This document shows, one piece after another, positions 33,521 to 46,772 of a stretch of 64,000 nucleotides of DNA; the stretch's first letter is position 1, and the number at the start of each line of letters is the position of its first letter. The stretch comes from Filobasidium wieringae (Eukaryota; Basidiomycota; Tremellomycetes; Filobasidiales; Filobasidiaceae). Location of the stretch: positions 868,001 through 932,000 of the forward strand of contig BCIV01000006.1 of the NCBI GenBank assembly GCA_001600055.1, written 5' to 3'. The notes beneath the pieces were generated by a model that saw nothing but the letters and a program-made list of their open reading frames with translations, did no database searches and was not told where the DNA came from. Both the position numbers and the translations under genes were made by a program.

Positions 33521-35128
33521 GGTGAGGTTAGGTTAGGGATGGATGGCGGGAGAAGGGGTCGAGGTTTGAAGGCAAGGTGTGTGACGAGTGTTATTATAAA
33601 GGTCTTGATGTGTGTCAAGATGGGCAGCCTAAGCCTGATAGGTCTGTAATGTAATGTACAAATGGCGGAGGTGTATATCAAGTGCAGATTGAAGCAGCTA
33701 CGCTATCGAAACGTCGAATCAAAGGTGAAAGAAAGCAAGAGCTTGAGCGTAAAGCAGCCCCGCGGAAGCTAAACGTCGCGATATAAATCAACTTCCCCTC
33801 TTCTCTCAACCGAAAGCGAAAGCCACTGACGAAAAACGGGATGATAACGTGGGCTATCAGCTGTCATCGTCCAGCTCTAGCCTACGGGGTCCCTATACGG
33901 GGAATGGATCCATCCAGTACACATCAGAACTAGTCAGACTACAGACCGGGTGCAGGACATGTGACTTTCACCTTGCTCTACGAGTTTGACGTTTTCGAGG
34001 TTGGCTAGAAGGAAAGAAAACCAAGACACACGCGGATGCATTTCCGTCTCAGGTAGATCCCGTTCATGGCGATCTCTCAAGCGCTTGACCTAAACATCTT
34101 GTCGTTACAGATCATCAGTAGCTTCAGTAGTGTGGTTCACCTGTCTCCTATCAATACTACGACCGCATGAATCTTGACTGTATGGTCCTCAATGACGATT
34201 CGATGCCTCGAGTATTTTTCTGCTCTTCCCGTCCGTATGTTTGCTTGCCTTTCGGGATGTATTCCAACTCGCAAATCGGGCAAGACCGGGCTGCATAAGT
34301 CAACGACATTTTTCGTACGTGAGAGACAAAGATGCGTCTTCTCCTTCCATCGGAAGCTCGTTGTAGAGTTGAAGGGTAGAGTTGATGATGTGATTGCGCC
34401 CTTTAATCGGATTGATAGCAGAGGAGCGAAGTGGCGATGCCCACAATCGAACTCCCATGCTGAGCGAAAAAATTATACCTTTAGATCCTTGACTTCGAGC
34501 CTTTCGTTAACAAGTATGCTAAATCCTAGAATCCTCATAAAGCTTACGAGCGTGGAAAACTCTCGAGAAGCCGATCGACAAGAATAAGATATATAGGATA
34601 CGATATCGAGATCTTATGGTCGAGGTCTCGCAACGAAACAGATCAAACCCAGTGGGCAGCGCAGACTGGACAAAATAAGTTTGAACATCACCAGAATCTC
34701 CAGAGATCCGCCCTCCTCACCTAAGTTAAGCTGAGATAGGTGATAGAATCGACCCTGAACGATATCTGCACACACAGTAATGTTGGCTGATGATCTATGC
34801 TTCATTTCGATCACGTGATATGTAATTAAGACAGACACGCGTGTAAACGCGTCTACGCGTCTTTCTTTGTTTGTGATCATTTAGCTCATTCGACCTTGAA
34901 TTGGGGACTGCTCTTGGTATTGGTCGAGCCCTCTGACCACACGAAGCCACATTATCTCCCTACAGTGACGGTGCTAGTTCCTGTAAATCTCGGAATTCTC
35001 TTTAACGGGATAGCGAAACTCTACCGATCGACATACATGTCAACGAACATTTAACGATACCAATCACACATCGCCCGCAGGAGAAAGTGATCGATAAACG
35101 GCGAACAACAAGCAAAGAGTTCTTGGGG
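33521..35128. other. Divergent 1.6-kb region between the MDR-fold gene and RIF1
   Basis: No exon is supported. A 137-codon open frame at 34174-34587 has no family content. The right part contains the cluster of ACGCGT boxes listed separately. Confidence 0.5.
34837..34860. promoter_or_regulatory. Cluster of three ACGCGT (MCB) boxes upstream of RIF1
   Basis: ACGCGT occurs at 34837-34842, 34847-34852 and 34855-34860, three palindromic MluI cell-cycle boxes in 24 bp, about 270 bp upstream of the RIF1 ATG. MBF-type factors bind this element in yeasts to drive G1/S transcription. Clustering makes chance unlikely. It could also act on the divergent gene 1.3 kb away, but RIF1 is much closer. Confidence 0.7.
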
Positions 35129-38100
35129 ATGAAGATGACTCGTTCTCTCCAACGTCCTGTCAGCGTAGAAGGGGATGTTTTTATCGATGCTGGGGATCAT
35201 GAGAGCACAAAGCAGGGGAACTTGAGGCTCGGATCGCATAGGTCAATCAAGGGGAAGGAAAGAGCGGACGAGATAGGGGAGGAGGTCATGATCGGTTAGC
35301 ACATCTCTATACCAGAACTAGCGCATGATCCTGATGTCAATTCTGAACGAATAGGAAAAGCGCTCAGACCTACTGTAACGTTCTCACCCCACCCGAGACA
35401 TCATCCTTACCGCTCAGATGCTCGAGTAGCTACTTCCCTGAGAGCCATAACCGGCCAACGTTCATACATTTATACCCCACGTGGACCTACGAGTGGATCG
35501 AACCATCTGGATAACGAGACGGAGAATTCTCCGACGAGAACTCCTCGGCAGGAAGATCAGCATGCTACCCCGCTCACAAGCTCGGTCAATTTCCCCATTA
35601 ATATTACACCGAAATCGATCTTGAAGAGGAACCGATCTGGTCCGATCCGAGTGGTCGCTACCGTGGAAGAAGGTACAAGAGGGAATGCGGAAGAACTCAG
35701 ACAGAGCGGAAGGAGAAGACCGGGTTTGCAAGTGAAGGATTCGTTCGTTCTGAACAAGGAACGAGCGGTCGAAGGACAAGCGGGTGGGATTGAGGGAGGC
35801 GCGTTCAGGGAAGCGGACGTGCCCAGTTCTGATCGATTGTCTTCCGATACCGGAACGAATGGCGAGGAGCTCTCTGAGCGGAGAGGAGGACAGGATGGGA
35901 ACGGTACTGGTGATAATAGTAGGTCGCCCGGTAACAACAACGACAGCTCTGACCCAGTCGATGTGGAGATGGTCGAAGTCGCCTCTTCTCCCTGCACCAT
36001 TGATTCTCTACTGGATATAATTCTTAATGAGAAAGACGATCTGCTCGCAATCGAAGACGCCTACAACCTTCTCTTCGCTCGTTTTAAGAGATCTTTCGTC
36101 ATCTCCGCTGCAGCGGACAAAATCGAGCGTACGGAAGCTCAAGAGAAGGAAGCGGAGAAGATTTCCGAAGCTTTGAAGCGAAACGTGTCAGACGTTTATC
36201 GGGCACTGATGAGGGATATCAAAAGGCTGGTCCAGCCCGCTTCGGCCGATACTAGATTCTTAGGATCGTCTTCTCCTATTCCGACGAGAGAAGACAAGTT
36301 GGCAACACCATCACCTTCACCCCAGACGGCTTCTAGCTCTGATCGGGAGAACGACGATCAGGAAGATACTCCTAAACCTAGAAGGCAAGGGTACTCCGAA
36401 GCTGAAGTACGGGATCGAAGAGCAGCTACGGGGGTTGGTCAAGCTGCGCTCAAGGTCTTCTCCTTTATTGGGTATAACAAAGAGTTGCACAGTCACTTCT
36501 CGGACGCGGATATATCTTCCTTGCTTAGCGCGGTCATGATCATCCCCGCTACTCCCAAATTGAACACGCCCAATTCGAAACGGACGTATGTTCTGGCAAT
36601 CTATGTGATCTCCTTGCTGGTGGTACCTATCTCGTGTTTAGTACCGGTCAAGGAGAAGATCGTTCGCGCCTTACTCAACGCGACAGGAGAGATCTGTACG
36701 AAATTCTGGGGAGGAGGACCAGGTCGACAAGAAGGACTAGGAGGAAACATAAAAGCCAGAGTGGAGGGTTATTCGGCGATTTGGAATGTCTGCTCGAAAT
36801 ACCCTTCGCTATTCTTGCCTTACCACAAAGATTTCGTCCCGGAGATCATCAAGGGTCTGACGAGCCCTAGTCCTACTGTCAGAGCTAGAGCTTCGGCTGC
36901 TGCGGGCGGGTTCTCAAAGGGAAAACTGCGATGGCTCAGGGAAAGCAAGCAGACGTTCAAGACAGTTGTACAGGGCGGTAAGCTGGTTGAGGAGGACGAT
37001 GAAGAATGGGAAATTAGGAAACTGGATGCAGAGAAGGAATGGAGGCGGGCAAGGGACACAGCTCACGAGTCTGAGGCAACGACGGTCGTGAGTGGATCAA
37101 GAAGAGACTGATTGTCGGTGCTATTACTAAATTCATCAACTTGATTAGCAACAACTGAAACGGGGATCTAAAGCACCGTATGGCCAGGAAAACGGTCGTC
37201 GACAGATCGTATGGGACGAAGTTGAGAAGATGCTGAAGCAAACCATGATCAACGACCCTCATTGGTCTTGTGCTTCTTGGTCATGCCTCGTCACGATGCT
37301 CGGTGATGGCTATATCAACGATTCTCAGCGATATAAATCGATGCAACACGTAATCCTCGTGAGTAATACGGGCATGTCTTCTCTGGCAGATCAGGTTTTA
37401 AAATTCAACTTCCTGTCAGGCCCCACTCAGTAAGCAAGAAACAGGCCCACCCCGCTCAGCCGGTCGTATATGGCTGTCAAGGTTTGCGTATGACCACACT
37501 ATCTATGCCATCATGAACTACAAGAAGAAATACGTGGTGGATACCGCAGGTCTGCCAGGTATCACCTACGATCTCGATTATTCCCTTGGTGACAAAATGC
37601 TCGGCGCCGTCATGTCGCTTGTGGCGGAAGCGTGGAAACGGGAAGAAGAGCTTATACGTGGCGGAGGACGAGCTGAGACGTTCGAATGCCCGAACAATAA
37701 CGCTACCGCCACTCTTGCTTGGAGGCGGAAAGACTCTGAAGCGAGTCAAACCTATCTTAAAGCCTGCGGATCTGGTATAGTTGGTATAGCTTATGCCTAT
37801 ACCACCGCTATCATAAGAAATAGCTATAGGCCAGAAAGTCCCGATAGCCCAGACCAATTGGAGATCGACCGCTCTATGCGTAACCAGCAACTGGACAAGC
37901 TCTGGTCAGCTATCAGTCCTGTTCTCATTAACATGTTACAAGTGGAAGCTGTTGACTGGCTCAAGCTGGAAGCGTGGAAGATCCTAGCTCAGCTGCTTCA
38001 TGGACGTCCGGCCTTGACAGACTCCAACACTCAAGACGATATCGATCAATTACTACATACAGTCTATTTGGACGGAGAGGCTGCGAACACTGACATCGTC

Positions 38101-41100
38101 CCTAATGGACGAGAGCAGTCAATTCTGGAATTGGCTCACTCCCTCGTGGACAAACGGATCTTGCCCGAAGATCTTATGACATTACCGTGCGATTGGGTAG
38201 CTTCTCATTTGCCTCGCGGACTTGGAAGACTGTTCCAAGAAGCTTTGCAAGGTATCCGGGGCTTCCAAGATTCCGACTTGGTCCCAGAGCTCAATCGGCC
38301 TACCGGTAACGTCCGTCTTCCCGTAAGTCTCTACCTGCAGCTCAACCGTCAACGCGTGCTGATTCATATGACACACAGGACTCCTTGATCGTAATTTGGC
38401 AGGGGTTACTTCTTGCGCTCAAATCAGTAGCTACAGGTTCGCATCCTGTTTCTTCTTTCCTGAGCGAGAGCTGCTGCAAATGCTCAACCTTCATGTTTTC
38501 CTCCAGATACCCCGACTTTCAGTCCGGGTTTACTCGAGATAGTCAGGGTCGCGACTGACGTCTATTCGGCTGAAGCCCAGGCATATCTCCCGCCTTCCCT
38601 CAACGCAGAGGACCTGATCAACCTTGACACGATCCAGCTTGACATATTTCACGACCTGGTAGAGGTAGCGATCGACTGCCTTGGATTTAAGGCTTTAGCA
38701 GACTCCAGACTTGCCTTGGATACCGTCTCGTCCTTCCGGGATGCGACGACGCCATTCATCCAGGTCATCAGTGCTAATGAGGCAGGAAACCCAACCGCTA
38801 TTGGAGCCTGGCTTCACAAGCTTGTCACATGTCCTCCCATAGATTTAGCAACAAACGCATCCGTGCAACGAGTCTATCTGGAGATTTTCGATCTCCTGGT
38901 TATGACGCTCGAATCAGGGGGACCTGCCAAGCGGACTTTAGGAGATTTGACGAATGCTCTGTACACTTTCCATAACGATTGCCCCTCAATACGGCAACAC
39001 CTTTGGAGAACTTTGAGTAAGTTTGAAGCGATTTTGTCTCATACTTTTTACTAATTGTCGAGGTGCATCTATCCGTTAGGCCGAGGTTGGATACGCGTCA
39101 TGCAGAGTATCCGGGGTACATCAACTGCATCTAACAACACTTGCCGAATTTTGGTTGAGATGATGATACGTCCGTTCAGGTGAGGCTGTTCGAGTTCGGT
39201 GCACTGGTCATTACTCATTTCGATTGTGGTTCTAGAGAAAATTGGACAATGAAGGTGCCGGATTTCTTTACGCGCGACCTATCGGATTGGGTCGAGCTTG
39301 TTCGAGCAGCAGCCGACAGATCAGAGATGAAGGGTGTTGCGCCGCATGACGCTGTTCTTGTCCCTTTTGCTGAATACATGGTTGCTTGGGGGAAAAGCCC
39401 CGACTCTGATTGGTCAGTAGATACCGGTGCATGTGATATTGTTCGGTTTCTAAATTCGATACGACATAGCGACTGGTCTTCTCAGCTCATTCTGACAGAC
39501 CGTCTGCTCTCCATGTTCCCTTCAGCGGACGTTCCTTTGTCGGAAGCAGTGTATCAATGGTGTTCCACTGTACTTGAGAGAACTGTGTCGCTTGATCTGG
39601 TCAACAGAGCTAGCCCAATCATTGACGTTATGGATTGGGTAGTGACTCGCGTTGAGACGGAAGACAACATCACCAAGGACCGCCTTATAGAGCTACACCC
39701 GATCATCACAGCACTCTGTATGATGGAGACAACCGAATTAAAGTGCTCGACTGCAGTACGTTGTCCGATTTTTTCGATCTGCACATGGCGTACTGATCCG
39801 ATTGAAATCAGCTGGAGACTCTATGCTTTCATTTCTTGACAGCAGTGACCTCTGCTTTGGAATCCGGCTGCTTGATATGGGACCAGAGCATCGTGCGACA
39901 ATGGAGCCCGGTGTTTGCAACGTTACTGAATAGTGAGGATCTTGAGCGTCAACAAACTTGCAAAACATTTTGGCATCGAAGCTACGATAAATTTGGCGTA
40001 GACTGCTTCCCCACTGATCAGATCAACAACATCCGCAGTTGTCTGGGCATCGTGGAACCACCTCCTACGGAAGTCGAACCACTCGAGCGAGCATCATCTT
40101 TGTCGCCTTCAAGTTCCAGCCGGACTGCTCCTCTAGACTGGGCACCCTCAATTGCAAAGCAACCATTCAAGGAAGCCCAGAATTCGAGCGTCGTGTCTGA
40201 GTCGGCCGGTTACGAAGCAGATGTTTCTGCTCTTACTCCTTCGATCAAAGCGAACGTTCAAGTCAAGAAGGAGAGAGGGATGAAACGGAAAGCGGAAGAA
40301 CAAGACTCTACCTCCAGTCGACGGCTGAGGTCTCATGCTAGCGTCGACTTCGACACTCCATCTCCCTCTCAATTAAGTCGGCGCCAGCGTAAGCGTCTCA
40401 ATCAGTCGCAAGGTTCGCCGATAGTTGAGGGATCACGACGAGGGAAGAGTCGCCGGCTGAAAGGAACAAAATCACTGCCACAACTTGACGCCCCGCACAG
40501 GCAAGACCAGGAGGAGGAAGGAGATTGTATACGCGTGACTACAACACCGCCTTCAGCCTCGCAAAGCGCCAGGCTCCATTCTCCTCTGAATCGACAATCT
40601 TCATTGCCGCTTCGAGGACATCGAAATTCATCGACTCCTACAGTGCGCCAAGAAAATCGCCTCCTGATCCAGCCAGAAGTCGTGGTACCAGTCTTAGCGA
40701 AACGTGTGTTCAACTGGGAAATCTAGCCTAAAACATCTTGCTAATGTTTATCTAAAACAGCCTTACCGTATACTGTGGGCAGTCCCAAGCTGTCCGAGGC
40801 GACTACGGAGCAAGGAGGACGGTCGACGACTCCTGCTACACTACGTAAGTCAATCAGATCAAAACTCCGCGATCAAGGATCCTAACGAATTTCACAACAA
40901 TGGCTCATTCCAGAGCGAACGAGCGACGGTCCTTCCATGAACAAAAGCAGACTGTTGCGCTCGCGAAAGGTTGGCAAAGTGCACATCCTTCTGATCGCCA
41001 CTGGTAGCGTGGCCAGCATCAAAGTTCCAAACATAATCATAGCGTTATGCGAGGTGGGTCGACAGCACATTGATCCTCGTCCTGATTACTAAGCGATGCC

Positions 41101-41872
41101 TACAGGATGACCGATTCGAAATTCAAGTGGTTGCGTCGGAGTCAGCTCGCACTTATTTGTCGCCCAACGAACTTCCTAGTGCTGTTACCTTATGGGCAGA
41201 TAAGGACACTTTGGATGTGAGTAGATTGTGCATCAAAAGGGAAGCGAGAATCAACCTGACATTAACAATTTGTCGGGAATTTGACCAGGATTTGAAGGGC
41301 CCTCAAGACTCGTTTCTTCATGTTGAGGTATGTAGCAACGGCTGCGATCAATTGAAAAGCCACTCTGATCGTAGTATCCAGTTGAGAAGATGGGCAGATA
41401 TCGTACTGGTTGCACCTTGTAGCGCAGACGATTTAGCCAAAATTGCGGTCGGAATTTGTGATAGTCTTGCGGTCAGTGCAGTACAACGCTACCCTTGTCG
41501 GTCTTGACTGAACCAGTACATATAGACTTCGGTTTTAAGAGCGTTCTCGCCAGCAACCCCCACCTTCGTGTTTCCCGCTATGGATCCGTTGTCCTATGCG
41601 CATCCACTAACAACACAGCATATCGATATCGTCCGGAATATCATCGGATTTCGGGTGATTGGCCCTCAACTCGGTCAAATCTCTACCAGCGAAGGAAAAG
41701 GTAGGCACCTTCCGTTTAAGCAAAACCCTTCAAGTGAATTGATCTGGCTGTTTGATTAGTTGATCCAGGAGCTATGACTAATTGGAGAGAGGTAGTGGGG
41801 ATAGTCAAGGGAAAAGCCGATGATCTGATCTCGGCTACCACGAAAGCCGGCGTAGAGGCCGTAACAATGTAG
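35129..41872 (+). CDS. RIF1: Rif1 homologue, reading in frame into a Hal3/PPCDC-type flavoprotein
   Basis: The Rif1 part (35129 to about 40703, roughly 1,650 residues) starts MKMTRSLQRPVSVEGDVF. Exon 2 has ALRPTVTFSPHP and ITPKSILKRNRSGPIRVV, with a SILK protein phosphatase 1 docking motif. The Rif1 N-terminal HEAT domain follows: AALKVFSFIGYNKELHSHFS, ADISSLLSAVMIIPATPKL, GGNIKARVEGYSAIWNVCSK and PSPTVRARASAAAGGFSKGK, then more helical repeats. The end is basic and disordered (SSRRLRSHASVDFDTPSPSQ). Rif1 controls origin timing and telomere length by bringing PP1 to chromatin. Unspliced, the frame stops at 40726. A canonical intron (40704-40760, branch CTAAT) and a second (40845-40913, branch CTAAC) instead lead in phase through PLPYTVGSPKLSEATTEQGG into the Hal3 domain (described separately), with the final stop at 41870-41872. 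Rif1 identity is strong; the fusion is a model. Confidence 0.8.
40937..41872 (+). CDS. Hal3/PPCDC flavoprotein domain (C-terminal part of the RIF1 frame or a separate gene)
   Basis: Alternative separate-gene model beginning at the ATG at 40937 (MNKSRLLRSRKVGKVHILLI). Motifs of the HFCD flavoprotein family: IATGSVASIKVPNIIIALCE (FMN phosphate loop), QVVASESARTYLSP, DSFLHVELRRWADIVLVAPC (catalytic-type His), SADDLAKIAVGICDSLAT, PATPTFVFPAMDPLSYAHPL and GAMTNWREVVGIVKGKADDL. In coenzyme A synthesis these proteins decarboxylate phosphopantothenoylcysteine using a His, an Asn in PxMNxxMW and a Cys near ACGD. Here the His is present, the Asn position is Asp (PAMDPLSY), and the Cys loop reads QISTSEGKVDPGAM with no Cys. 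In yeast, Hal3/Vhs3 subunits supply the His, pair with Cab3, and inhibit the Ppz1 phosphatase; a Hal3-like, non-autonomous role is therefore inferred. No ATG lies between 40761 and 40937 in this frame. Confidence 0.85.
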
Positions 41873-42032
41873 CTTGTGTTTGCGTTGCAATGACTGTATT
41901 TGTACCAGAGCACATGATACCCAGACATATCCTTGTATAAACATAGCATAAACACGAGATACCCAAATGAACAGAATAACCTTTGACATAGAGGTCTTCA
42001 ATAAAATACACCCAACTCCCTGTACCACGAGC

Positions 42033-45000
42033 TCAATCCTTGCGCTTGAGAATACCTTTGAAGAAAGTCTTGAAGCGTGAGGTATGACCATTATCCGTGT
42101 GCTTGGCCTTCTCCTCCTTGTGACCGTTCTTCGTCTTTGATTTCGAATTGCTCCAGCCGTTACCCTGCTTCAAATGATCGCGGCTCTTAAGCCAGGCCCA
42201 TCTGTTGCACATTGGAGGCCAAAGAATACTCACAGTACGATCGACTCCGGCCCGAGCAGCCAGCCTTCCCTCGTAAGGATCCTCATTCTGATCCATCACC
42301 ATCTTGTTCAAGTCCCCGGTGGAGCGATGCGATCTTAGCTTGCGGTCTAAACCCATGACACTTCTAAAGCCGGTATTTGTTGGAACTGCTTTGTATCCAC
42401 GCTATTAGCAAGTCTTATTGCAAGCATGACAGAGGCAAGCTTACTAGTCTCCGGAAGCTCTTGCTCGGCGATCGGCTGGAATTGCATGCTTCGGAAATTT
42501 GTCAGGTCCGACCGTTGCCTCCTGAGATGATACGCATGGCCTGTTTCCATGCTCATACTAGGTCGATGAGTTGGCGTGGCACGGAATTTCTCTTCCTCTT
42601 CTTCTGGGAGTTGTCCTTCTCTAGCCAAGCGAACGAAATTATCAACGCTTCGACGATTCGTGAGATTGCTAAGTCGAGATATAGATCTTTCGAATTGGAC
42701 AGGCGTCTTTGACCGAGGTTGATCGTTTTGTACCTCCTCGAGAGCTGTGCGCGCCTCTAGTACGATCTCTATTTGTTATCGTATCATCAGTTCGGCTCCA
42801 GGGTCTCACGAACCAAGAGACTTACGTTCTACATCCTTGACCCCTGTAGTATCGGAAGATCTCGACTTGATGAGCAAGATAAGCAACGGGCAAATTGCTG
42901 AGATAGGCTTACAAGATGCGATCTGGTTCAACCTGTTGTCAAGCGCGACCGGATCCATTGATTCTAGTTGGGGCAACGGTGGAACCTTGAGTTTCTCTGA
43001 ACTGATCAAATGACCTGAGAGCGTCCGCAAACGTCCCAGATGCTCAGCTGTCGAATCAAAGGGTTAGACTTTTCATCGAATCTTGTATGAGCATATCGGC
43101 TGACCATCATGGCGTATGATAGTATCTCGAGTTCCGGAAACCATGGACTCTTGAGACGCGCGTGATTCGATTCGCTTCTCCACTTTAGCTGGAGAGCCGT
43201 CCCTAAGTTCCTCGACCGAACCTAACAATGGGGACGTCAATGGGTTGCCTTGTGAGAAACAGAGGAATGAGACATGATGCCTACTCTTCTTTTCTTCTTT
43301 CTGGACGCCCGCTGGCAGGATCGTACTTTCAGGCTCTATGAGCGATCGCAAGCAACCCTCACTAACTATCCTCGTGTGACGGCGGTGTTGTGAGGTTCGT
43401 CTAGCCCTTTGATCTTCCCTCATTATATCGATTTCGTCTTTGTTAGCATGCGCGATGTTGTCAGAAGCTAGAGCCATTGCTGATGCTGGACGTCGTAATG
43501 TCGGTACCTCGGAAGATTGTTCGCGCTTGCGGGTCTCACGAAGTTGATCTGAAACTCAAACAGTCAGGATGCGTTGAAAGGACGCAATCACTGAGGCCTA
43601 CCGAAAGACTTGATCTTCTTGACCTCTTTTCGACTTGGTAGTGTGTTCTGTCCACTAGGTTCAGAGGCTAGATTGGCCTTGCTCAACGCCTCAATGGTTG
43701 ACATCGCATTTGTGCGTGATCTAAGTGGACTGTTAGACATTCGTCCATGATTGTGGTGAGGAGCATGAGGTTGTTCTGCTTTCACTTCCGGTCTGGACGG
43801 CTCAGGCACCATACTCCTTTGTGCTTTTACGGTTAGTCGCTTCTCAGGAGTCACGACAATCACGGCCTCGGCGATGCGATTCTTTAGGATGACGTTAGGA
43901 CCGCCAGCCGCGACCGATTTCGGATCACATTCCACAGCAGTAGGCTCCCTTCTCCTCTTCGCCACAGATCCGCTTCTCACGGTAGTCGGATTATCTTTCG
44001 GTAGAGCTTCCTTCCGCTTCTTCGACCGCTGATCCGATGTTGCAGTCCGTACGAATGGAGGGGTTGACAGTTCTGACGAGTGAGGCTGAGATTGTAGAGC
44101 TACATGTCGCGTTGCTTGGGATGCAGTCAATCTTTTCTGATGGTCGGGACAGATCATAGCTCTAAGAAGTCGCTCCATAGCTTTAAAAGACAGACTGTAT
44201 CAGTACTAGTCTTGTATGTCGAGGCCTGGAATGCCGACTTACATGTACTCATCTCCCAGTCACCTAGCCATTCGCCTTTGACCGACCTTTCGTAGTAGAT
44301 TTTCATTTCCCCCTGTGAGCTGCAGTCCTCATTTGCAGACGACTCGAACGGCGTTCTACCCATTAGAATCTCGAAGAAAGTTATCTGCGCGAGACACATC
44401 TAATTCAGTACGTATAGCTCGCGTCAAGACGTCTTCACCTACGCCTAGCGCCCAGACATCGGAAAGACGTTCATCATGCCAAGCACCTAAAGCACGCTGT
44501 TTCCCAAGGTAACAGAATTAGCCCGATATGATGCTTTTCAATATCACGGCGACACTTACAGGTGGGTCAAGGTATTCTGGAGTTCCCCAGCTGATTTCGC
44601 TCCAGAATGGTTGTTCTTGACTTGCGCTAGCCTTGTTGGAAGAAACTGCTAATGAGGTCGCGCCGATAGGACCTTTACCGTCCGAATTTTGAAGATCCCA
44701 CCGTTGTGCGAACCCAAAGTCTACAAGGACAGGAACATCCGCGTACGATATCATGATGTTGGCAGGCTTGATGTCGTTATGAGCTAAGAAGATAGACCGA
44801 AATCAATTGAACTCTTCGTATTATGACGAACCGGACCCGAAACGTACTGATCCCGCGATCGTGCAGATAGGCAATCGCGCTGGTAAGTTGACCGAAGTAT
44901 GGTCTCGCCGTCTCCTCTGGCAAACCAACAGGAATACAATGAGACAAATATGGCATGATGACTCTATTGTACGGGAACACAGCTCAGTCAAACGATTCGT

Positions 45001-46772
45001 TTAACGGATCAAAGTTGGTGTTACTCACAGAGCGTAGCTTGGAGTGATGATGAAGGAATCGAAGCCGATGATACTAGGATGAGGATCGTCTCTCAAGGTC
45101 CTAATGACTTTCATCTCGCTCCACAAAGCCCGGACCCGCGCAGAGGTAGTAGGATCCTTCTTCCTGTAGACCAGTTTGACGGCGATCTTGTCCGAAATAT
45201 GTTGAGCCGCGATCGCTTGAGAAATAGGGGGAAGACCTAAGGTAGTGTGACGAAGCGCCGGATGGTAATCTGCTTTTCGTGGTTTAGCTCCCCATACGGA
45301 TCCCCAATTACCTGTCGTAACGCGATTCTATATCAGCTTGCGTAAACATGCCCATCGAAGTCAGACATACCGAAACCAATTTCTTCCCCAAATTTATACC
45401 TGTCCGCTAGCATCTGATCAGAGAGCTAAAAGATTGATTCGCGTTCAGTTAGCGCCTGGAAGGTCAAGCTCTCAGTTTATAGAATTACCGATAGAACGTC
45501 TGAGACTTCTTGACTCTTGTTCTCGTCCGATTGAGCAACCCCGCTATCATCTGCTCCACTGCTAGTCCAGCTACTTTCCCCCGTCTCGTGCGCAGCAGAA
45601 TCGTCTTGCCCCGAGTTTTCAAACGAGCTATCCCTTACTTCATGAATATTCCTCGTCTCGATTTGTTCTGGTTTGCGGTGACCCTGCTGATCCTGAACTT
45701 TGTTAGGTGTGAAAGTAGATTCGGCGGAATGGTCTTCCAAGTAATACTTCGTCTCCATCTCTTCTCCATCGCGATCGAGCTCTTCGTCTGCGATGCGCGA
45801 GACCTCCATGCTCATATCGAGCGAGGTTTCGCGGCTAGGTTCCCGCTCGTTTTGAACAATAGGAGTCGGTTCTAGCTGATAGAACTTGCCTTCTCCAGGG
45901 ATGACGATCTCTCTCTGATCATTCCTCTTGTTCAAGCTTGAAAAAATCGGAGGCTGGGCTTCGAGAGGGGGAGAAGGCGCCTGTCTCCTTTGACCAGCCT
46001 CTTCGATCGCTCGTATACGTTCATCGTTAGTAGAAGCTTCCATAAGCTGGTCGCTCTTCTTCCCCGCAAGCTCATAGTCTTTCGGTAAGACCTCCGACCT
46101 CACCCTCTCTTTTGCGGTTTCGTCCTGTCCAGGAGCTCGAGCTCTTCCATGTCCAAGCTGAGCGCGTTGATAAGCCTGATGAGCTCTAGCCTGAGCGTGA
46201 ATGGGAGGGAACTTCTTCCCTTCCGCCTGAGCGATCTCAAATGTATCCAACTCAAAAGCATTTCCGAAACTACCTTCGCTACCGTTTTCCTTCTCCCTCT
46301 TTTTCTTGACCGGGGGTGCCAAGGCTTTAAGGAGTAAAGGATCGTCCATAGTGATATGAGATGGAAGCGGGGCGGTAGGAATGAGAAGCTTGGTACCGGG
46401 AGGGTGAGGTGGAGTCAACTTCAACCTCAACCTGAGCTTAGATTTTGGCTTATATAGGGTCTGCTGGACATGCGTATCTTCTTCCTTCTTGTTAGTCGAA
46501 ACGGACCGGGGTACTTGTTGTTGAGTACGCGAAGGAACTCTAAGAGCAGGGTTGTGAACGTGTTGAATTTCCCTCCCCGCCTGCTGATTCATCGAACTGC
46601 CCGCGTCCTGGAGAGCTCTGACAGATCTGGGTTGTGAGACTTCTCGATGAGAAGGTAGTCGTGCGTAAGGATGAACGGTAGTTTGTTGAGTAGGGTAACG
46701 ATCCGGACGAGTACCGGGGGTCCTTTGCGGGAAAGAATTGAGCGAGGATGTAGTTGGGTGTTGATGAAGCAT
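42033..46772 (-). CDS. Ser/Thr protein kinase with long disordered extensions
   Basis: About 1,300 residues in many exons. The first exon (ATG at 46772: MLHQHPTTSSLNSFPQRTPG) is a roughly 430-residue disordered arm with basic and acidic Ser-rich parts. The kinase domain follows: ADRYKFGEEIGFGNWGSVWG (Gly loop), ISDKIAVKLVYRKKDPTTS (VAIK-type Lys), IVMPYLSHCIP, ETARPYFGQLTSAIAYLHDR, SHNDIKPANIMI (catalytic Asp and Asn; HND replaces HRD), VLVDFGFAQRW (DFG), SWGTPEYLDPP (P+1 loop), LSDVWALGVTFFEILMGRTP and a final helix with CPDHQKRLTASQA. The C-terminal third is disordered and basic, ending FKTFFKGILKRKD at 42033. All residues for catalysis appear present. I cannot place it in a kinase subfamily with confidence. 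It converges on the RIF1/HAL3 3' end, 160 bp away. Confidence 0.85.

Follow-up and report, generated by a model that had tools for sequence, protein, structure and literature searches.

Does the DNA downstream of a long Rif1-like reading frame in Filobasidium wieringae encode a second protein or the end of the same one? In the window, the whole 64,000-nucleotide stretch that was analysed (50.4% G+C; on contig C6 of a 19.76 Mb genome in 33 contigs), a Rif1-like frame at 35129-40726 (+) is followed on the same strand by a Hal3/PPCDC-like gene that runs from an ATG at 40937 to a stop at 41872. Stop and ATG are 210 bp apart, and a gap below 210 bp occurs in 2 of 29 same-strand gene gaps. The region from 39812 to 41872 proved to be single copy when the genome was searched for a second copy or allele. 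A sequence-only reading of this DNA had proposed that splicing joins the two frames into one Rif1-Hal3 polypeptide. We consider one transcription unit, in which a Rif1-like-Hal3 fusion is formed via two introns, to be somewhat likelier than two genes. The part of the proposal that concerns the frame gained ground, the joined frame beating chance controls and the linker being coding-like, while the existence of the transcript is deduced from genomic sequence.

The apparent stop codon of the Rif1-like frame lies inside a possible intron with donor, branch and acceptor as first read, and all of the proposed coordinates were right (Table). With this intron removed, the frame reads ...VLAK-PLPYTVGSPKLSEATTEQGGRSTTPATL, a linker without methionine; with the second intron removed, in matching phase, it continues as RTSDGPS-MNKSRLL into the Hal3-type domain with no stop, as had been claimed. 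In silico, the fused model is a single open spliced frame of 1947 amino acids across both domains. Neither intron stands out in score from the others predicted in the genome. Among accepted introns, and with a model that had seen the region, the donor and total site scores rank at the 26th and 43rd percentiles for the first intron and at the 72nd and 36th for the second.

The exon between the two introns scores as coding sequence. Its coding score is 3.16 in frame, as compared with -2.6 and 0.6 in the other two frames. An open frame with a score of 3.16 or more is present in 1.07% of 84-nt windows drawn from noncoding sequence (n = 39,556) and in 0.61% of upstream ones (n = 8,236), as compared with 63% of coding exon starts (n = 365), and the ratio of coding to noncoding density near the linker score is about 15 (0.348 vs 0.0236). 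By this measure a coding linker is likelier than one that is 5' untranslated region; since it contains no ATG, it would, if coding, be entered from the Rif1-like exons. The ATG of the Hal3 gene follows CCTTCC, a context that ranks near the 1st percentile among 71 predicted starts and has T at -3, as do 3 of the 71; the rank is exaggerated, since the model that picked these starts relied on the matrix that also gives the score. Intron 2 holds an ATG out of frame with Hal3, so that a transcript retaining this intron would be expected to translate Hal3 poorly.

Joining was scored with a simple gene-finder trained on 264 kb. In its first, unmasked form it called 35135-41872 one gene unprompted; because that training had seen the region, the gene-finder was retrained with 34500-42000 shuffled. 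The junction was then scored alone, as the last 183 nt of the Rif1-like exon, the 210-nt gap and the Hal3 start. After this masking, joining scored 18.5 nats above two genes, and the introns on the best path were precisely 40704-40760 and 40845-40913. A value of at least 18.5 was reached by 0 of 54 controls with the gap swapped for 210 nt upstream of other genes (maximum 13.95), by 3 of 594 with random intergenic slices (maximum 20.5) and by 0 of 2464 pairs in which the end of one other gene was combined at random with the start of another (maximum 9.0); these ranks hold for this one chosen pair, without correction for the number of same-strand pairs that could have been picked. The same scoring of 13 pairs of actual neighbours on one strand, no more than 1500 nt apart, gave 10 negative scores and 3 pairs that could not be joined, so that none exceeded 0; this control is partly circular because the gene-finder itself had called those pairs separate. 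When intron 2 was credited to the two-gene model, the joint score was still 17.6.

Table. Positions of the features discussed (window coordinates unless marked L003).
Feature	Position	Strand	Description
Rif1-like gene	35129-35294, 35355-37087, 37149-37358, 37420-38322, 38379-38436, 38507-39016, 39080-39179, 39236-39755, 39812-40726	+	9 exons
PP1-docking motif pair	35357..35626	+	RVxF-like RPTVTF near start of stretch; SILK (KSILK, 35612-35626) at its end
Conserved C-terminal motif	40676..40705	+	EVVVPVLAKR; Naganishia EVVLPALSQR, EVVIPALSQR
Candidate intron 1	40704..40760	+	57 nt, GTGTGT...CTAAT...ACAG; contains in-frame stop TAG 40724-40726
Linker exon	40761..40844	+	84 nt, phase 1-1, no ATG
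Candidate intron 2	40845..40913	+	69 nt, GTAAGT...CTAAC...CCAG, phase 1, canonical
Hal3/PPCDC-like domain	40937..41872	+	From first Met; exons 40914-41053, 41106-41216, 41289-41327, 41382-41471, 41526-41700, 41760-41872
PPCDC-PTH2 joining exon	L003 3046-2791	-	Within L003 3975 down to 2258

The domain that would end the fused protein appears to be a degenerate PPCDC fold. From 40937 the Hal3-like gene encodes 214 amino acids, which match PF02441 (Flavoprotein) at E 3.9e-27. Their best solved relative is 6eoa (E 2.9e-47), a Cryptococcus neoformans protein that we take to be CnHal3b; the match record names PPC decarboxylase only. We aligned 31 sequences, namely 25 of the best 120 of 467 relatives, one protein from the homolog search, the window domain, its paralog on contig C3 and three PDB pieces. 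The catalytic His is kept in the window domain (FLHVE) as in all 31 sequences. The catalytic Asn is lost, the window domain having PAMD where the other 30 have PAMN. The catalytic Cys is lost as well; it is present in 28 of the 31, the human piece not covering it and the Arabidopsis structure having Ser. In the tree, no branch is longer than that of the window domain (1.44), whose partner is 6eoa (support 0.63), and by eye five intron positions inside the domain match those of the C3 paralog. From the residue roles given in PMC6695811, the loss of Asn and Cys implies that the domain should not work as a PPCDC alone. Judged on these residues it is probably no working PPCDC on its own, and, by analogy with yeast Hal3/Vhs3, it could supply His to a mixed trimer. 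The complete PPCDC on contig C3 would leave the window copy free for another role. The domain had been described as a phosphatase-inhibitor-like module, which now looks weak: the basidiomycete Hal3 proteins tested, from C. neoformans and Ustilago maydis, have little or no inhibitory effect on Ppz according to PMC9604783, and the yeast-type acidic C-terminal tail is absent (window C-terminus GKADDLISATTKAGVEAVTM). A catalytically degenerate PPCDC fold is the better description.

Several observations weigh against joining. Of the 18.5 nats, some 14.5 are due to the gene-start prior (8.9) and to the negative score of 40704-40726 including the stop (5.6), and 31 of the 54 upstream and 517 of the 594 intergenic controls also score above 0. 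The score leans towards joining, much of its absolute value being prior, and we therefore used the ranks alone. The gene-finder also placed introns at 40389-40510 and 40643-40697, in sequence that is conserved as protein in P0001, the sole close relative found (293 amino acids, of which 273, or 93%, are identical; encoded on a 3190-base metagenome contig). Its exon calls therefore err, and an automatic annotation of the last Rif1-like exon is likely to be wrong. P0001 itself ends ...LAKRAFNWEI, at the same residue as the unspliced ...LAKRVFNWEI of the window. The stop is therefore probably conserved, a finding compatible with two genes or with retention of the intron. The conserved C-terminal motif ends in R (AKR or SQR), and this R is kept by the unspliced frame only. 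All three Naganishia homologs of the Rif1-like protein (P0122-P0124; 30-33% identity; order Filobasidiales) are without the PF02441 flavoprotein domain, and comparison of their tails with the linker gave nothing significant (p 0.27, 0.33, 0.85). Finally, Met 40937 sits at the natural start of a stand-alone PPCDC, 13 residues before the GKV lysine (11 in the PPCDC record P0045).

These points make two ordinary adjacent genes a serious rival, one that we hold to be quite possible although not the probable arrangement. In that case the Rif1-like protein would end at the stop at 40726, and a HAL3 transcript starting upstream of 40845 would carry a spliced 5' untranslated region and be translated from 40937. 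The shared end of P0001, the unfused Naganishia proteins (3 of 3) and the position of the Hal3 Met all fit, and introns in untranslated regions do occur in C. neoformans, where PMC5006051 describes them as much less conserved than those in open reading frames. Two genes are harder to reconcile with the coding score of the linker, the poor context of the Hal3 ATG, the small gap and a joint score above the controls. Beyond the donor, a single difference is visible in P0001, RV to RA. Its simplest cause would be GTG to GCG, a codon deduced from the protein rather than read, which would turn the donor GTGTGT into GTGCGT and leave it usable; GTGCGT is the donor of 7 of 496 accepted introns. One scan each of viral and of genome contig collections found no DNA of relatives.

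How the protein ends in related fungi bears on the same choice. The protein homolog search scored the 7999 candidates with most words in common and listed five proteins, and other Tremellomycetes may be carriers of such genes. The motif EVVxPxLxxR is shared between the window and the three Naganishia homologs (p 0.047, 0.04 and 0 of 1000 shuffles). Past EVVxPAL, these homologs extend by 67, 143 and 145 residues into a common helical-looking tail, in one of them DVFALIQQAAQLKHTIRDLDD... A tail of this type was not found at 39812-43000, in the joined or the unjoined reading, beyond chance-type hits. The top score, 42 (30 to 35 in three control regions), spans the end of a Hal3 exon and an intron and has a stop in frame, and the next hit is antisense to the neighbouring gene; both were taken as chance. 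We also considered the linker as a homolog of the Naganishia tail, the two being aligned with RTSDGPSMNKSRLL beside RPPSRPSFSRSRVL. The p values for the whole linker, given above, led us to reject it; a stretch of the linker picked post hoc gave p 0.03, 0.02 and 0.52. In this lineage the end of the Rif1-like protein, at the place now taken by HAL3, has probably been remodelled. The sequence-only reading had suggested a check of related Tremellales for joined or adjacent Rif1 and Hal3 domains; the homologs found here, all three unfused, are Filobasidiales, not Tremellales.

Whether the upstream protein is Rif1 is a question separate from whether the genes are fused. In the model of the gene, every exon phase matches and the frame is open until 40724, giving 1704 amino acids; a second ATG at 35135 has a better start context than that at 35129 and may be the true start. 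The protein has both PP1-docking motifs, RVxF (RPTVTF) and SILK (KSILK), which PMC4811881 describes in Rif1; KSILK is found in all three Naganishia homologs and KVSF in two. Structure prediction gives HEAT-like helices of middling to good confidence for residues ~400-633, and a poor fold for exon 4 (mean pLDDT 42.5). This layout resembles that of fungal Rif1 in PMC8820739, where RVxF and then SILK lie N-terminally, followed by a HEAT-like middle and a disordered basic C-terminal part. Compared with Rif1 of Saccharomyces cerevisiae and Hansenula polymorpha as treated in PMC4811881 and PMC8820739, the window protein is alike in RVxF/SILK, HEAT-like region and long disordered part; it differs in that no C-terminal tetramerisation-type domain was recognised, with a possible Hal3 domain at that end. 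On the basis of the motif pair, the predicted HEAT-like fold, the disordered tail and their order, an identity with Rif1 is plausible and on balance likely, and we name the protein Rif1-like.

The plain label Rif1 used in the sequence-only reading is thus backed by motifs and layout and lacks a profile match. Pfam Rif1_N matched neither the spliced protein (E up to 0.01) nor the three Naganishia homologs (E up to 5). An exon-by-exon scan of the genome with Rif1_N likewise gave no match, and as a control matched nowhere either, absence is not established. A profile search of the PDB with the Rif1-like protein returned no significant relative, one match having E 5.7. The fold search with exon 2 returned generic HEAT/ARM proteins; Foldseek gave no match at E up to 0.001, and Rif1 was absent among the matches listed, which excludes nothing. 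These results would suit another HEAT-repeat, PP1-binding protein, an identification that we regard as unlikely: the order of RVxF-SILK, HEAT-like middle and disordered basic C-terminal part is that of fungal Rif1, no rival place in the genome matched Rif1_N, and Rif1 diverges strongly, with 16% identity between two budding yeasts in PMC8820739.

A bicistronic read-through transcript that keeps the Rif1-like stop, rarely or never uses intron 1 and yields no fusion protein is improbable: mushroom-forming fungi have polycistronic mRNAs with a mean distance of 364 nt between reading frames (PMC4503453), but a figure legend of that article calls them likely unique to Agaricomycetes, and on this reading both the signals of intron 1 and the coding-like linker would have arisen by coincidence.

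Several known Hal3 systems offer comparisons with the Rif1-like-Hal3 fusion. SpHal3 of Schizosaccharomyces pombe, a PPCDC core with thymidylate synthase, likewise fuses a PPCDC/Hal3 domain to an unrelated protein; its PPCDC is N-terminal and active and its partner an enzyme, whereas the window domain is C-terminal and degenerate and its partner Rif1-like (PMC6695811). Closer in arrangement is UmHal3 of U. maydis, also from a basidiomycete, with a C-terminal PPCDC behind a long N-terminal extension containing Vps9-like sequence; it has all three catalytic residues, His, Asn and Cys, and works as a PPCDC, while the window partner is a PP1-docking HEAT protein (PMC6695811). Exobasidium P0125 (PF02441 and PF02204) shares the long N-terminal partner, C-terminal PPCDC and basidiomycete origin. 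This PF02441 and PF02204 (VPS9) architecture was found in E. rhododendri P0125 and in a second protein, P0126; PMC6695811 reports PPCDC-Vps9 for Ustilaginales but not other fungi. S. cerevisiae Hal3/Vhs3 resemble the window domain in keeping His and lacking the catalytic Asn and Cys (PMC6695811, PMC9604783); the window domain differs in having no acidic tail, and the Rif1-like RPTVTFS, which is not of BBxxxVTF form, bears only a loose likeness to the yeast KRVPAVTFS. In C. neoformans, as here, there are two PPCDC-type genes per genome, and 6eoa is the best solved relative; CnHal3a and CnHal3b are functional PPCDCs with non-acidic tails and no apparent Ppz regulation according to PMC6695811, whereas the window domain has lost Asn and Cys.

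The second PPCDC gene of F. wieringae, at C3:802258-803975 (-), has complete catalytic residues, and a single uninterrupted exon runs from it into a peptidyl-tRNA hydrolase 2 (PTH2) domain. The predicted protein of 374 amino acids contains Flavoprotein at 30-213 (E 6.6e-30) and PTH2 at 260-374 (E 9e-46) with an acidic linker between, and this is a firmer fusion than that of Rif1-like and Hal3. Literature searches found no report of a PPCDC-PTH2 fusion, and the PPCDC record of Filobasidium floriforme, P0045 (207 amino acids), is without PTH2. The sole other place in the genome with a PTH2 match, C1:374332-374478 (+), is weak (E 8.2e-4; 23.5 bits, cut-off 23), and the genome's only canonical Pth2 may therefore be the one in the PPCDC-PTH2 gene. 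In the window, a convergent neighbour at 42033-46772 (-) lies 160 bp from the Hal3 stop and is predicted to encode a large protein with, by eye, a serine/threonine-kinase-like stretch within a long disordered chain. A Metallophos profile search of the genome gave 17 matches in all.

If both introns are spliced, a PP1-recruiting Rif1-like HEAT protein would be joined to a degenerate Hal3/PPCDC domain by a short disordered linker, whereas retention of intron 40704-40760 would give a short Rif1-like protein ending ...AKRVFNWEI. Known members of the PPCDC fold are trimers, and here the fold may act as a C-terminal oligomerising or regulatory module that replaces the lost tail, not as an enzyme. 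What the sequence itself displays is the open joined frame, the splice signals and the coding-like linker, which in combination outrank the controls, together with the loss of two catalytic residues and a helical tail that was searched for and not found; the transcript and the module role are inferred. According to PMC5006051, intron retention is the commonest alternative splicing in fungi; in C. neoformans it takes part in gene control, and alternative splicing there was not considered an efficient means of diversifying the proteome. A bolder version, which we put forward as a long shot, is that the Rif1-like protein lost its helical tail and gained a dead, trimer-forming PPCDC fold that would replace the oligomerising end of Rif1 and add a second phosphatase-related surface; the 57-nt intron would decide whether a short protein or a long, oligomeric one is made, and the protein could couple chromatin PP1 targeting to flavin/CoA metabolism.

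No report of a Rif1-Hal3 fusion was seen in the literature listings searched, where the one paper listed for Rif1 and Hal3 together is a phosphatase review (PMC6506691). If real, the Rif1-like partner and degenerate domain would be a new form of the known PPCDC/Hal3 gene fusions of S. pombe and Ustilago (PMC6695811). Such a fusion would link a PP1-recruiting regulator of replication timing and telomeres to a family that inhibits a PP1-like phosphatase in budding yeast. It would also be an example of an intronic stop codon choosing between two proteins, and a natural test of whether another fold can supply the C-terminal oligomerisation of Rif1.

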